Assembly: GCA_009377795.1 (NCBI GenBank)
Contig: WHTJ01000035.1
Location: 1 to 41,341, forward strand
Reading direction: 5' to 3'
DNA: 41,341 nucleotides
Source: Propionibacteriales bacterium
GTDB taxonomy: Bacteria > Actinomycetota > Actinomycetes > Propionibacteriales > Nocardioidaceae
The notes beneath the pieces are model-generated. The model was given only the letters and a program-made list of their open reading frames with translations, was not told the DNA's origin and made no database searches. Every line of letters starts with the position of its first letter. Positions within the stretch are counted from its first letter, which is position 1. Positions 28,795-35,051 of the stretch are shown piece by piece. The translations under genes and the position numbers were made by a program.

Positions 28795-29648
28795 ACGCCG
28801 TGGCCAACCCGATCGAACACGGGCGGTTGCCCGCCTCATACCTGACGCCCGGCAGCTCCTCGTTCGCCGATTTCCTCTCGCAGCAGGCGCCCGACCTCCT
28901 GCCGAGCCGGCGGCACCGGGGCGCGGTCTCGGGTGACCTGTCTGGCGAGGTACTCCACGGCACGACCATCGTGGCGGTCACCTATCCCGGGGGCGTCGTC
29001 ATGGCCGGGGATCGGCGAGCGACCATGGGCAACGTCATCGCGCAGCGCGACGCCGAGAAGGTCTATCCCGCGGACGAGTACTCCTGTGTCGGCTTCGCGG
29101 GCTCGTCTGGGCCGGGCGTGGAGATGGTGCGGTTGTTCCAGACCGAGCTCGAGCACTACGAGAAGATCGAGGGCACCACGCTGTCGATCGACGGGAAGGC
29201 GAACCGGCTCTCCGGGCTGATTCGGGGCAACCTGGCGATGGCCATGCAGGGCCTCGCGGTGGTGCCGTTGTTCGCCGGTTACGACATGACCCGGGAGCGC
29301 GGCCGGATCTTCTCGTACGACGTCGCCGGGGCCAGCTACGAGGAGACCGCGTTCCATGCCGTCGGCTCGGGGTCGGTATTCGCCCGCGGCGCGCTCAAGA
29401 AGCTCTATCACGAGGGCATGAGCGAGCGGGACTCCGTCTCGTCCATCCTGCAGGCGCTGTACGACGCCGCGGACGACGACTCGGCCACCGGAGGCCCGGA
29501 CCTGCCCAGAAGGATCTTCCCGATCGTGGCCGTGGTCACCGCGGACGGATACCGGCGCCTGCCGGACGCCGATGTGGGGCAGCTGGCCGACGATGTGGTC
29601 AACAGCCGCATGTCACGGCCGGACGGTCCCGCCGCGCCGTTGTATTGA
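28791..29648 (+). CDS. prcB: 20S proteasome beta subunit
   Basis: PrcB is the catalytic subunit of the 20S core. The 285-residue precursor has a 57-residue propeptide that is removed autocatalytically at LHG-TTIVAV, exposing Thr58 as the N-terminal nucleophile. The following [19 protein letters not shown] contains the conserved Asp and Arg, and [19 protein letters not shown] supplies the conserved Lys region. GTG 28791 overlaps the pup stop. Its Shine-Dalgarno AAGGAGGT is made of the pup codons for the Lys-Gly-Gly end and lies only a few bases away, so GTG 28800 is an alternative start two codons into the same propeptide. Confidence 0.97.
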
Positions 29649-29696
29649 TGGACTGGTCCAGATGGCGTACCCGCACCGGCCCGAGAGGTTAACGAC

Positions 29697-30521
29697 GTGA
29701 CTGTCCCGTTCTACGTGTCGCCCGAACAGCTGATGAAGGATCGGGCCGACTTCGCCCGCAAGGGCATCTCGCGCGGCCGCAGCGTCCTCGTCCTGCAGTA
29801 CGCCGACGGGGTCGCGTTCGTCGCCGAGAACCCCCATCGCACGCTGCACAAGATCAGCGAGCTCTACGACCGGGTCGCCTTCGCCGCAGTCGGCCGCTAC
29901 AACGAGTACGAGAACCTCCGGATCGCGGGTGTGCGGCTGGCCGACATACGCGGCTACTCGTACGACCGCGCCGACGTCACCGGCCGGGGGCTGGCCAACG
30001 CCTACGCGCAGACTCTGGGCACGATCTTCTCCTCCGGCGGTGAGAAGCCCTACGAGGTGGAGCTGTTCGTCGCCGAGCTCGGGGACTCCGAGGAGACCGA
30101 CCAGATCTACCGGCTCACCTACGACGGCTCGGTCGCCGACGAGCACCGGTTCGCGGTGATGGGCGGTTCCGCGGAGCAGGTCGCCGACTACCTCCGATCG
30201 AATTACGAGGACGCCCTGAGCCTCTCCGACGTCGTACGCCTCGGCGCGGACGCCCTGGGCCATGACAGCCAGCAGGCCCGCACCCTCACGCCCCTCGAGC
30301 TCGAGGTCGCCGTCCTCGACCGCAGCCGGAGCCAGCCGCGCAAGTTCCGGCGGATCAGCGGGCCCCGCCTCACTGCGTTGTTCCCGGAGGAGGAGACGCC
30401 CGCGGACACCGGTGCGGCCGGCTCCGAGGCCACCGCGACGGGCTCGTCCGGGGCGGAGCCGACCGGGGGCGAAGCCACCCCCTCGGCCGAGGAACCGCCG
30501 GCCAGCGAGTCCAGCGACTAG
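29697..30521 (+). CDS. prcA: 20S proteasome alpha subunit
   Basis: PrcA forms the outer rings of the core, gates substrate entry and binds the C-termini of Mpa. The 274-residue protein begins [20 protein letters not shown], the gating N-terminus, and continues with the N-terminal nucleophile fold without a catalytic Thr ([17 protein letters not shown]). The last 40 or so residues are an acidic, Ala/Glu/Pro/Ser-rich disordered tail. GTG start with GAGAGG upstream, 48 bases after prcB. The TAG stop is the first half of the TAGGCT hexamer of pafA. Confidence 0.97.
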
Positions 30522-30524
30522 GCT
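30519..30524 (+). promoter_or_regulatory. -10 hexamer for pafA overlapping the prcA stop codon
   Basis: TAGGCT begins with the prcA stop codon TAG and lies six bases before the pafA GTG. There is no Shine-Dalgarno for pafA. It suggests that pafA has its own leaderless transcript besides any read-through from prcBA. Confidence 0.5.
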
Positions 30525-30530
30525 TGGCTC

Positions 30531-31892
30531 GTGGATCGTCGGGTCTTCGGCATCGAGAACGAGTACGGCGTCACGTGCACCTTCCGAGGGCAGCGGCGCC
30601 TCTCGCCCGACGAGGTCGCGCGCTATCTCTTCCGCCGGGTCGTCTCCTGGGGACGCAGCAGCAACGTGTTCCTGCGCAACGGCGCGCGGCTGTATCTCGA
30701 CGTCGGAAGCCATCCGGAGTACGCCACGCCGGAGTGCGACGACGTCGTCGACCTGATCACGCATGACAAGGCGGGCGAGCGGGTCCTCGAGGGCCTGCTG
30801 ATCGACGCCGAGCGCCGGCTGCGCGACGAGGGCATCGCCGGTGACGTGTACCTGTTCAAGAACAACACCGACTCCGCCGGGAACTCGTACGGTTGCCACG
30901 AGAACTACCTCGTGGGCCGGCACGGCGAGTTCGGCCGGCTGGCCGACATCCTGATCCCGTTCCTCGTGAGCCGCCAGATCGTCGTCGGCGCGGGCAAGGT
31001 CCTGCAGACGCCCAGAGGGGCCATCTACTCGGTGAGCCAGCGCGCCGAGCACATCTGGGAGGGCGTGTCCAGCGCCACCACCCGATCCCGGCCGATCATC
31101 AACACCCGCGACGAGCCGCACGCCGACGCGGAGCGGTTCCGGCGGCTGCACGTGATCGTGGGCGACTCCAACATGAGCGAGACCACGACTCTGCTCAAGG
31201 TGGCCTCGACCGACCTGGTGCTGCGGATGGTCGAGGAGGGCGTCGTGATGCGCGACCTGACCATCGAGAACCCCATCCGGGCGATCCGCGAGATCTCGCA
31301 CGACATGACCGGGCGGCGTACCGTACGGCTTGCGAACGGACGCGATCTGAGCGCCCTCGACATCCAGAACGAATACCTCACCAAGGCGCGGGATTTCGTC
31401 GACCGCCGCGAGCTGCACACCCCGGTCGTCGACTCGGCGCTCGACCTGTGGGAGCGCGGGCTCAAGGCGGTGGAGTCCGGCGATCTCTCGCTGGTCGAGC
31501 GGGAGATCGACTGGGTGATCAAGTACCAGCTGATCGAGCGCTACCGCACCACGCATGGGCTTCCGCTCAGCCATCCGCGGCTGGCGCAGCTCGACTTGGC
31601 GTACCACGACATCCACCGCGGCCGCGGGCTGTACTACCTGCTCGAGAAGCGGGGCGCGGTCGCTCGCGCGACCACCGACCTGGCGGTGTTCGAGGCGAAG
31701 TCCCGCCCGCCGCAGACCACCCGCGCCCGGCTGCGTGGGGAGTTCATCCGCCGGGCCCAGGAGCGTCGCCGTGACTTCACCGTGGACTGGGTGCATCTGA
31801 AGCTGAACGACCAGGCGCAGCGCACGGTGCTGTGCAAGGACCCGTTCCGGGCCCACGACGAGCGTGTGGAACGGCTCATCGAGTCGATGTGA
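30531..31892 (+). CDS. pafA: Pup-protein ligase
   Basis: PafA uses ATP to phosphorylate the C-terminal Glu of deamidated Pup and then forms the isopeptide bond to a substrate lysine. The 453-residue glutamine-synthetase-like protein begins [18 protein letters not shown], with metal ligand Glu9. [19 protein letters not shown] contains the catalytic Asp57. [12 protein letters not shown] and [18 protein letters not shown] follow, and a small C-terminal domain ([22 protein letters not shown]) binds Pup. It lacks the Dop loop, which distinguishes it from the dop product. All key residues seem intact. Confidence 0.98.
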
Positions 31893-32002
31893 CCGCCGGC
31901 GGCATCGCCCGGCCGGACGCGAACGTGTCGTACGAGCCGGGCACCACCGCACGTCCGTCCGAATGCCGTGCATCCGGTCGACTGGAGATTGACGCGGCGA
32001 GC

Positions 32003-32008
32003 TAGGGT
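32003..32008 (+). promoter_or_regulatory. Candidate -10 for the FKBP gene (TAGGGT)
   Basis: TAGGGT lies 40 bases before the chosen GTG at 32049 and would give a short pyrimidine-rich leader containing TTGAGGTG as Shine-Dalgarno. The 156-base gap after pafA shows no other clear signal apart from a GC-rich short palindrome (CCGCCGGCGG) just after the pafA stop. Confidence 0.4.
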
Positions 32009-32048
32009 GTCCCTGGCTCTTCTTCTTCTCCCTGCATTGAGGTGTCTT

Positions 32049-33002
32049 GTGCGACGGCTGTGTGTGCTGCTGGCCATTCCTGCGTTCCTGCTCTCCGCCT
32101 GCGGTGGCGACGACTCGGAGGGTGGGGGCTCCGCGAGCGCGTCCGTGATCAACGGTGTCACCGTCACGGGTGAGCGCGACGAGGCGCCGAAGCTGAAGCT
32201 CGACGAGGGCCTCAAGATCAAGGAGACCGCCACCGAGGTGCTGGAGGAAGGAGACGGCCCGGAGCTGAAGGCGGGCGAGACCATCCTGGTGCACATGGTG
32301 GCCCTGCAGGCCGACAACCAGGAGAGCCTGATCAACACCTACGAAGGCGACGGCCCGATCGCGTTCGCCCTGGACCAGCAGCGGCTGATGCAGGTGGGCT
32401 TCCCGCCGGGCATCGCCGACATACTCGAAGGCAGGCACACCGGCGATCGGGTGCTCACCGCGATGACGCCGAAGGACCTCATGGCCGGCCAGTCGAGCCA
32501 AGGAGCCCCGGCTCTGGTGGCGGTGTTCGACATCGAGAGGTCGCAGGACTCGGAGCCACTGGACGGCGTCAGCGGTGACGCCGCCGATCTGCCGGCCGGC
32601 CTCCCGCAGCTGCAGCTGAACAACGAGGACGTGCCGACCGGCTTCGACGCGGCCGGGGCGGGGAAGGCGCCCAAGGAGCTCGGCGTGCACGCGGTGATCG
32701 AGGGCGATGGGGACGAGATCGAGTCCGGTGACCTGGTGACCGTGAACTATCTCGGCCAGATCTACCCGGACGGGAACATCTTCGACCAGTCGTACGAGCG
32801 CGGAGAGCCCACGACGTTCCAGCTCCGCGAGGGTGCGCTCATCCCCGGCTGGGTCAAGGGACTTGAGGGAATGAAGAAGGGATCCCGGGTCGTCCTGGTG
32901 ATCCCACCCGCCGACGGCTATGGCAAGCAGGGCAATCCGAACGCGAAGATCAAGGGCACCGACACCCTGGTGTTCGTGATAGACATCCTTGGTATCGGCT
33001 GA
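32049..33002 (+). CDS. FKBP-type peptidyl-prolyl isomerase lipoprotein
   Basis: This 317-residue protein is predicted to be exported and lipid-anchored: the leader RRLCVLLAIPAFLLSACGGDD has a Leu-Ser-Ala-Cys lipobox. It holds two FKBP-like modules. The first (about 50-170) is divergent, while the second (about 205-317) is canonical, with GDLVTVNYLGQIYPDGNIFDQS, LIPGWVKGLEGMKKGSRVVLVIP and DTLVFVIDILGI. The function is prolyl cis-trans isomerisation in folding of extracytoplasmic proteins. GTG 32049 is chosen because it directly precedes the positively charged leader. The gene commonly lies between pafA and pafB in actinomycetes, without a known role in pupylation. Confidence 0.92.
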   Translation: MRRLCVLLAIPAFLLSACGGDDSEGGGSASASVINGVTVTGERDEAPKLKLDEGLKIKETATEVLEEGDGPELKAGETILVHMVALQADNQESLINTYEGDGPIAFALDQQRLMQVGFPPGIADILEGRHTGDRVLTAMTPKDLMAGQSSQGAPALVAVFDIERSQDSEPLDGVSGDAADLPAGLPQLQLNNEDVPTGFDAAGAGKAPKELGVHAVIEGDGDEIESGDLVTVNYLGQIYPDGNIFDQSYERGEPTTFQLREGALIPGWVKGLEGMKKGSRVVLVIPPADGYGKQGNPNAKIKGTDTLVFVIDILGIG

Positions 33003-33034
33003 CCGCAGCTGGAGTTCACCGAAGGGGGAGCGCC

Positions 33035-34000
33035 ATGGCTGCCGCACGCAAGAGCGAGCGGCTGATGAACCTCGTGATCTGCCTGCTGGTGGCCCGCACG
33101 TACGTCGGCAAGGAGAAGATCCGGGAGGTCGTCGAGGGCTATCGCGACCAGAGCGACGAGGCCTTCGAGCGGATGTTCGAGCGTGACAAGGAGGAGTTGC
33201 GCGAGCTCAACATCCCGATCGAGATCGGCCACGTCGAGCGGGCGTTCGAGGACGAACCCGGATACCGGATCCGGCGGGACGCGTTCGAGCTTCCCGAGAT
33301 CCGGCTCGAGCCGGACGAGGCGGCCGTGGTCGGCGTGGCCGCCCGGGTGTGGCAGCACGCCAGCCTGGCGGAGGCGACGTCGGGTGCGTTGCTGAAGCTG
33401 CGGGCCGGCGGGGTGGACGTCGACTCCCGTGCGCTCGCGGTCATCGAGCCGCACCTGGCGGCGCAGGAGCCGTCGTTCGCGCCCGTATGGGACGCGGTGG
33501 TGACCCGTACGCCGGTCACGTTCGGATACCGGCGACCCGGCGGCCAGGAGGCGCAGCGCGTCCTCGAGCCGTGGGGGATCGTCTCGTGGCACGGTCATTG
33601 GTACGCCGTCGGGTTCGACCGCGACCGGGAGGCGCCCCGGGTCTTCCGGCTGTCGAGGATCACCGACGAGGCGCGGCCGGCGGGCAAGGCGGGGGAGTAC
33701 GACGTACCGCCGGGCACCGACATCCGGAAGCTGACTGCGAACCTCGCACCGGCCGACCCGACCGGCGTCGCGACGATGCTGGTACGCGTCGGGGCCGGTC
33801 TCGCCCTGCGGCGTGGTGCGGACACCGTGGAGCCGACCGGGGAGGGGTGGGACCGGATCAGCACGGCGTACTCCCGTCTCGACGGCTTCGCCGACATGGT
33901 GGTCGCGCACGGCCCGGACGTCGTGGTGGAGGATCCCGCGGAGCTGCGCGAAGCGGTGGTGGTCCGGCTGCGCGGTCTGGTCAAGGGCGGTGCTGCGTGA
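33035..34000 (+). CDS. pafB: WYL-domain transcriptional regulator PafB
   Basis: PafB is half of the PafBC regulator. In mycobacteria PafBC activates the RecA/LexA-independent DNA-damage response; it is encoded with pafA but is not needed for pupylation. The 321-residue protein has an N-terminal winged helix (RLMNLVICLLVARTYVGKEKIREVVEGY), a middle helical region and a WYL domain (EPWGIVSWHGHWYAVGFDRDREAPRVFRLSRI). The start at ATG 33035 has GAAGGGGGAG upstream. Its stop overlaps a GTG that opens a 31-codon frame leading into pafC. Confidence 0.95.
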   Translation: MAAARKSERLMNLVICLLVARTYVGKEKIREVVEGYRDQSDEAFERMFERDKEELRELNIPIEIGHVERAFEDEPGYRIRRDAFELPEIRLEPDEAAVVGVAARVWQHASLAEATSGALLKLRAGGVDVDSRALAVIEPHLAAQEPSFAPVWDAVVTRTPVTFGYRRPGGQEAQRVLEPWGIVSWHGHWYAVGFDRDREAPRVFRLSRITDEARPAGKAGEYDVPPGTDIRKLTANLAPADPTGVATMLVRVGAGLALRRGADTVEPTGEGWDRISTAYSRLDGFADMVVAHGPDVVVEDPAELREAVVVRLRGLVKGGAA

Positions 34001-34092
34001 CGCCCCCGCTGAGTGTGACGATTTCCGCGGACACGCCGGCGGGTCGCGTCCAGAACGTCACGGTCAACGGCTCCGGGGTGGGGCGGCCGTGA
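33997..34092 (+). CDS. Possible 31-residue protein linking pafB and pafC
   Basis: A GTG at 33997 overlaps the pafB stop (GTGA), and the frame ends with a TGA at 34090-34092 that overlaps the pafC GTG (GTGA). The encoded peptide begins MTPPLSVTISADTPAGR and ends VTVNGSGVGRP. Alternating residues suggest two beta strands, with no Cys and no signal. Two exact four-base couplings suggest that ribosomes finishing pafB reinitiate here and then at pafC. It may be a real small protein or simply a coupling device. I do not recognise the sequence. Confidence 0.5.
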   Translation: MTPPLSVTISADTPAGRVQNVTVNGSGVGRP

Positions 34093-35051
34093 CTGCGAAA
34101 CAGCAGGTGGAGCGGTTGCTCGCGCTGGTGCCGTACCTCCGGGAGCGTGAGGGCGTTCGACTGGAGGACGTGGCGAACGACTTCGGTGTGGCGCAGAAGC
34201 AGATCCAGGCCGATCTCAACGTCTTGTGGTTCTGCGGCCTGCCCGGTGCGATGCCGGGCGACCTGATCGAGGTCGACATGGAGGCGCTCGAGGGTGAGGG
34301 CGTCGTGCATATCGACAACACCGATTTCCTCGACCGGCCCGTCCGGCTCGACGCGCACGAGGCGCTCGCGCTGACCATGGCCTTGAAGACGCTGCGCGAC
34401 GTGGCCGGTTCGAACGAGCGCGAGGCGATCGACCGGGCACTGGCGAAACTGGAGGCGGCGTCCGGCGACGCCCTGGCCACCGCCGACCAGGTCGAGCTGC
34501 GGGTCGACGCGGCCGACCAGAAGGTCGTCGACACCGTGAACGACGCCCTGCGCCACCAGCGGCGGCTGCGGTTGTCGTACTTCGTGCCGGCCCGGGACGA
34601 GACCACCGAGCGCGAGGTGGATCCGATGCGCCTGGTGGTGGCCGAGGGGCACAGCTACCTCGAGTGCTGGTGCTATCGCGCGGACGATGTACGGCTGTTC
34701 CGGCTGGACCGGATCTCCGCCGCGACCGAGCTGGACACGCCCGCGGACCCGCCCGAACACGCGCACCCGCGGGACCTGTCCGCCGGGCTCTTCCAGCCGT
34801 CGGCCGACGACATGCTCGCGACCGTCGACCTGGACCCGCACGCCACCTGGGTGGCCGACTACTATCCGCACGAGAACATCGAGGAACGGCCGGGCGGCGG
34901 GCTGCGTATGCGGCTCCGGGTGAGCGATCCGCAGTGGCTGGTCCGGCTGGTTCTGCGCCTGGGAGGCCATGCGGAGGTGGTGATCCCGACGGAGATCGCG
35001 GCAGAAGTTCACGAGCAGGCCACCAAGGCTTTGCAGGCGTATGAGGGCTGA
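34089..35051 (+). CDS. pafC: WYL-domain transcriptional regulator PafC
   Basis: PafC is the partner of PafB. The 320-residue protein has an N-terminal winged helix (KQQVERLLALVPYLREREGV then LEDVANDFGVAQKQIQADLN) and a WYL domain (RLVVAEGHSYLECWCYRADDVRLFRLDRI). A C-terminal WCX-like extension (WVADYYPHENIEERPGGGLR) follows. GTG 34089 has GGGGTGGGG upstream and overlaps the stop of the 31-codon frame. In most actinomycetes pafB and pafC are directly adjacent; here 88 bases separate them. Confidence 0.94.
   Translation: MTAKQQVERLLALVPYLREREGVRLEDVANDFGVAQKQIQADLNVLWFCGLPGAMPGDLIEVDMEALEGEGVVHIDNTDFLDRPVRLDAHEALALTMALKTLRDVAGSNEREAIDRALAKLEAASGDALATADQVELRVDAADQKVVDTVNDALRHQRRLRLSYFVPARDETTEREVDPMRLVVAEGHSYLECWCYRADDVRLFRLDRISAATELDTPADPPEHAHPRDLSAGLFQPSADDMLATVDLDPHATWVADYYPHENIEERPGGGLRMRLRVSDPQWLVRLVLRLGGHAEVVIPTEIAAEVHEQATKALQAYEG

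Follow-up and report, generated by a model that had tools for sequence, protein, structure and literature searches.

A dispersed repeat at the pafB-pafC overlap of a Propionibacteriales bacterium probably keeps the two genes coupled through a 31-codon relay frame

Termination-reinitiation coupling at NTGA overlaps is known (PMC6728339, PMC10666635), and overlapping gene pairs and short overlaps are enriched among the subunits of complexes (PMC10666635). In reporters from E. coli and Haloferax, not actinobacteria, a distance of about 20 nt between genes nearly abolishes this coupling (PMC10666635). PafB and PafC work together as a heterodimer (PMC5656591, PMC6789036), and in some species the two are fused. 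As far as the account of Supply et al. (1997) given in PMC12548453 goes, MIRUs are repeats, apparently mobile, whose insertion at start codons adds an internal ORF coupled at -4 spacing and hardly alters how strongly the downstream gene is expressed. For iraD, a short ORF upstream of the coupled gene is described in outline as supplying it with ribosomes (PMC5574718; reviewed in PMC12548453). A literature search returned nothing specific on comparable elements outside mycobacteria.

In this study, the pafB-pafC junction of a Propionibacteriales bacterium was analysed in a window of 41,341 nucleotides (the whole stretch of DNA), in which the gene neighbourhood is pafA, an FKBP-type isomerase, pafB, pafC, tatA and tatC. 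The identities of PafB and PafC were confirmed by Pfam domains and by sequence match to the solved PafBC chains (PDB 9fnd/7p5x). An earlier note on this DNA had claimed that a 31-codon frame is joined to both genes by GTGA overlaps; on direct reading the double coupling is real and its coordinates are exact. The features are as follows.

33035..34000, plus strand: pafB, the upstream gene, with WYL and WCX domains and phmmer matches to the PafB chains 9fnd_X and 7p5x_AY (E about 1e-67)
34089..35051, plus strand: pafC, the downstream gene, with HTH_PafC (PF19187), WYL and WCX domains and a match to the PafC chain 7p5x_AX (E 1.4e-59)
33997..34000, plus strand: first GTGA, overlap of the pafB stop with the relay-frame start, at the position of the pafB/pafC overlap that is the usual state in relatives and is taken as ancestral
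33997..34092, plus strand: relay frame, 31 codons with the stop included, non-conserved as protein
34089..34092, plus strand: second GTGA, overlap of the relay stop with a pafC start that is homologous to the starts in relatives
34006..34070, plus strand: 65-bp imperfect palindrome, one member of a dispersed repeat family
33996..34001, plus strand: left copy of the 6-bp direct repeat CGTGAC, by direct reading; as a possible target duplication, suggestive only
34088..34093, plus strand: right copy of CGTGAC, by direct reading
33990..33992, plus strand: alternative in-frame pafC GTG with an 11-base overlap with pafB, from which the frame is open to pafC and adds 33 N-terminal residues; a rival reading

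The pafB stop codon TGA (33998-34000) lies within the first GTGA, and the frame opened at GTG 33997 encodes the peptide VTPPLSVTISADTPAGRVQNVTVNGSGVGRP and ends with TGA 34090-34092 within the second. With the pafC GTG at 34089, the gap between the genes amounts to 88 nt. The 31 codons are the mere tail of a 247-codon chance open frame (33349-34092). On the minus strand, an open frame of 1144 codons (29613-33047) runs antisense to pafA and adjacent genes; it is most likely a high-GC artefact.

The gap sequence was compared with its own genome (G000), where about a dozen further copies with 75-85% identity were found, several of them matching both strands at one place. The core common to the copies is the palindrome at 34006-34070, and because this core is a copy of a dispersed palindrome, the 31-codon frame is mostly translated repeat DNA. 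The same repeat occurs in the nearest relative (G009) at a minimum of 16 sites with 92-97% identity to a consensus built in this analysis, and it is weakly present in a few other relatives. Most of the G009 copies follow closely on the end of a gene, and 10 of 16 lie between convergent genes, with genes called by open frame and codon GC only. In that genome the repeat (L372, L380, L381-L394) is an almost perfect palindrome of 65 bp that may act as a bidirectional, terminator-like element. A specialization of the window's repeat for coupled sites was considered but is not supported, since its other copies in both genomes are mostly elsewhere. None of the 11 other G000 copies tested forms a clear relay joining two genes with same-strand support, and three weak relay matches returned by the script (L057, L059, L354) are not credible by gene context. 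A loss of hairpin symmetry in the pafBC copy alone, suspected from a crude palindrome count, was also discarded, as other copies in the genome fold comparably.

The direct repeat CGTGAC bounds a 92-bp unit. Were it a target duplication, the two GTGA sites would be copies of one ancestral site, which is suggestive only. As proof of insertion the duplication was dismissed, because four of its six bases are the NTGA itself and the G009 copies show no evident duplication.

To place the junction, pafB-pafC junctions were compared across actinobacteria of the same family, order and class, giving 268 distinct junctions after removal of duplicates, four of which were mis-assigned by the script owing to inadequate alignment or sequence stretch. 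A 4-base NTGA overlap is present in 214 of the 268, and a further 12 retain it, having either a different start farther downstream or an extended in-frame N terminus of PafC. Other overlaps are of 1 base (10 junctions), 8 bases (6 junctions) and 11 bases (1 junction besides the alternative start of the window). In-frame inserts at other junctions appear as N-terminal extensions of PafC with the -4 overlap retained. The nearest relative, whose PafC is 72% identical (matching record L156, a Propionibacteriales MAG), has a plain ATGA overlap. These comparisons identify the four-base overlap as the ancestral state of the pair. Since the NTGA overlap is usual in relatives and plain in G009, the insertion in the window is lineage-specific and lies at the ancestral overlap; the very insert is known from one genome of the window's genus. 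At G001:C23:110396-111344, the pafC match is broken across two frames with three TGA codons in the first, either a broken gene or an assembly error.

None of the compared junctions carries the 31-codon peptide, which the earlier note had offered as a possible undescribed small protein of the PafBC regulator and had proposed to check in this way. The peptide is almost certainly not a new protein: it has no match in Pfam or NCBIfam, its DNA derives from a dispersed palindromic repeat, and the peptides of other relays (below) are unrelated to it. The composition of the frame is gene-like in GC by codon position (0.68/0.61/0.90), which is weak evidence for such a function, and we regard a functional small protein as exceedingly improbable.

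The recurrence of the arrangement was counted among 15 apparently independent junctions with a gap of at least 5 nt, excluding two with smaller gaps (L305, L359). In 12 of the 15, a frame starting in the NTGA of the pafB stop closes with a TGA that overlaps the pafC start by 4 bases. The inserts are 7-94 nt long and of mostly unrelated sequence, and several of the short ones look like small junction duplications. The relay peptides are unrelated across junctions, except that L111 resembles the Kribbella element. Cultured species with a relay include Kribbella steppae, K. catacumbae and Nocardioides iriomotensis. The 15 junctions are:

Relay, the window: 31 codons
Relay, Kribbella element: 26 codons, four distinct sequences counted as one event
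Relay, L035 (Nocardioides iriomotensis): 26 codons
Relay, L050: 33 codons
Relay, L028: 6 codons
Relay, L061: 8 or 9 codons
Relay, L100: 5 codons
Relay, L111: 27 codons, resembling the Kribbella element
Relay, L133: 4 codons
Relay, L230: 4 codons
Relay, L302: 8 codons
Relay, L371: 10 codons
No exact relay, L335 (G443): length 1 mod 3, frame stopping 7 nt before pafC
No exact relay, L170 (Kribbella sandramycini): 155-nt gap, pafB stop TAA
No exact relay, L368: 12-nt gap, pafB stop TAG

In L335, a second frame of 4 codons bridges the remainder of the 117-nt gap, a possible chain of two relays. Inverted GAGGACATCT / AGATGTCCTC flank the gap in L170, where pafB ends in TAA and a relay is lacking; this is the one clear long insertion that seemingly has lost coupling.

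As a null, the inserts were shuffled and varied in length with NTGA given at both ends. About 3.6 relays were expected compared with the 12 seen (P 1.4e-6). The excess persisted when the TAA and TAG cases were given a chance (P 2.5e-5), when two ambiguous pafC starts were additionally scored as failures (P 1.4e-3), and when the window and both ambiguous cases were left out (P 8e-4). Among gaps longer than 20 nt, seven of nine have a relay (P 9e-4). Five cases were already known when the test was framed, and the later ones are the cleaner evidence. For the window junction alone, 28% of the null inserts show the same double coupling. The earlier view that two couplings in one gap are unlikely to be accidental thus fails for this single junction and holds across lineages.

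Taken together, these data suggest that a repeat was inserted at an overlap and that coupling was kept via the 31-codon frame, an explanation we consider probable as a whole. A ribosome finishing pafB could originally restart on pafC at the 4-base NTGA overlap. An insertion of about 90 bp, mostly palindromic interspersed repeat, would then have left an NTGA on each side, and with a length of 2 mod 3 from start to start and no stops it would have created a frame from the pafB stop to the pafC start. The most likely route for ribosomes that finish pafB would be a restart at GTG 33997, passage through the insert, termination at 34092 and a second restart at GTG 34089, from which PafC is made. In this scheme the peptide would be a by-product, and the function would be to keep supplying pafC with ribosomes. 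Coupling would be expected to break across an 88-nt gap that had no relay, because reinitiation is nearly abolished by a distance of about 20 nt, and the repeat probably survives at the junction because the tiny frame can pass ribosomes from pafB to pafC. We infer both the use of the relay by ribosomes and its efficiency; selection for coordinated synthesis of PafB and PafC would be the cause, and the relay may affect the PafB:PafC ratio. The earlier suggestion of a reinitiation relay gains comparative support, as mostly unrelated insertions elsewhere keep the NTGA-ORF-NTGA plan far above chance, though the relay would more probably maintain an ancestral coupling than establish a new ratio of the two proteins.

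The main rival to the relay is that PafC starts at GTG 33990, so that the insert encodes 33 extra N-terminal residues and the 31-codon frame plays no part. The pafC frame is indeed open from 33990 through the insert, in-frame extensions with the overlap kept occur in other lineages, and so do overlaps of 8 and 11 bases. Yet GTG 34089 is homologous to the start in relatives, two residues off that of G009, and the G-rich AAGGG lies about 2 nt before GTG 33990, which would be too close for a Shine-Dalgarno sequence, and about 9 nt before GTG 33997. An extended PafC also leaves the 11 other relay junctions unexplained, and we consider it unlikely. Those same 11 apparently independent junctions, and the lack of a clear Shine-Dalgarno sequence upstream of GTG 34089, speak against a slightly less probable reading, namely that the repeat landed by accident, pafC initiates independently at 34089 and the frame is open by chance. 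Points in favour of this reading are the null frequency at the window junction and the position of the frame within a longer chance open frame in high-GC DNA.

It is also conceivable that the palindrome is an attenuator or message-end element between the genes that lowers pafC relative to pafB. The window copy is predicted to fold as a hairpin of -30.5 kcal/mol, and the gene-end and convergent positions of the G009 family would fit such a role. However, the fold of the junction barely beats shuffled sequences (z -1.2), no T run follows the palindrome, a search of Rfam gave no match for the junction, and the other relay junctions do not have the palindrome of the window. As a full explanation this is highly improbable, while an attenuator role could coexist with the relay.

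It seems that insertions at the pafB-pafC junction mostly persist where termination-reinitiation coupling is preserved. We are evenly divided on the broader proposal that selection for pafB-pafC coupling is so strong that insertions and small duplications in actinobacteria persist almost only as in-frame extensions or ribosome relays, with unrelated sequences, including repeats without preference for coupled sites, repeatedly becoming relay ORFs that conserve only frame length and NTGA ends. The relay case offers a sequence-only test for selection on translational coupling, which asks of an insert in an overlapping pair whether its frame is open and what its length is modulo 3. It also accounts for small ORFs of a kind that could pass for new proteins in annotation or ribosome profiling. 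As to PafBC, the case suggests that selection acts on the coupled production of the two DNA-damage regulator subunits as such.

Among known systems, NTGA coupling as such is shared by the window, where consecutive frames overlap by way of the relay frame, with the standard four bases shared at the pafB-relay step and again at the relay-pafC step; the difference is that two successive couplings run through a non-conserved mini-ORF instead of one. With the ORF of the iraD type, as far as that system is described in the sources cited above, the window shares a short ORF whose role would be to bring ribosomes to the next start, but here the ORF is placed between two cistrons and stems from a repeat insertion, with no sign of regulation. 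The repeat also resembles REP-like repeats in character, being dispersed, palindromic, stem-loop-capable DNA often near gene ends, whereas the window copy lies inside a coupling site.

The closest known system is MIRU. As in MIRUs, a dispersed multi-copy repeat of less than 100 bp (within about 40-100 bp; about a dozen more copies in G000, at least 16 sites in G009) lies at a coupled-gene junction, and its internal ORF overlaps the upstream stop and the downstream start at -4 spacing (GTGA at 33997 and 34089). The two differ in where their copies lie: MIRU copies are generally at coupled NTGA starts, whereas the repeat of the window is a 65-bp palindrome with copies mostly at gene ends or between convergent genes (0/11 clear relays in G000; 10/16 convergent in G009). 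A different, 77-80 bp element of Kribbella (GTGA-gAGCGGAGCGAG...GCGAAGCGAGGACG-cATGA) is found at NTGA-ORF-NTGA junctions of many gene pairs, with loci L177, L178, L186, L006, L308, L310, L314, L317 and L319 in Kribbella-type genomes and a relative in L111. It forms a relay junction between two genes in all seven copies tested, two of them pafB-pafC, and is a MIRU-like coupling element outside mycobacteria, distinct from that of the window. The window is the case of a general repeat, no specialist for coupled sites, that lies at a coupled site in the one arrangement by which coupling would be kept, and it constitutes a variant of the MIRU-type arrangement because it would work like a MIRU although its repeat is generally absent from coupled sites.
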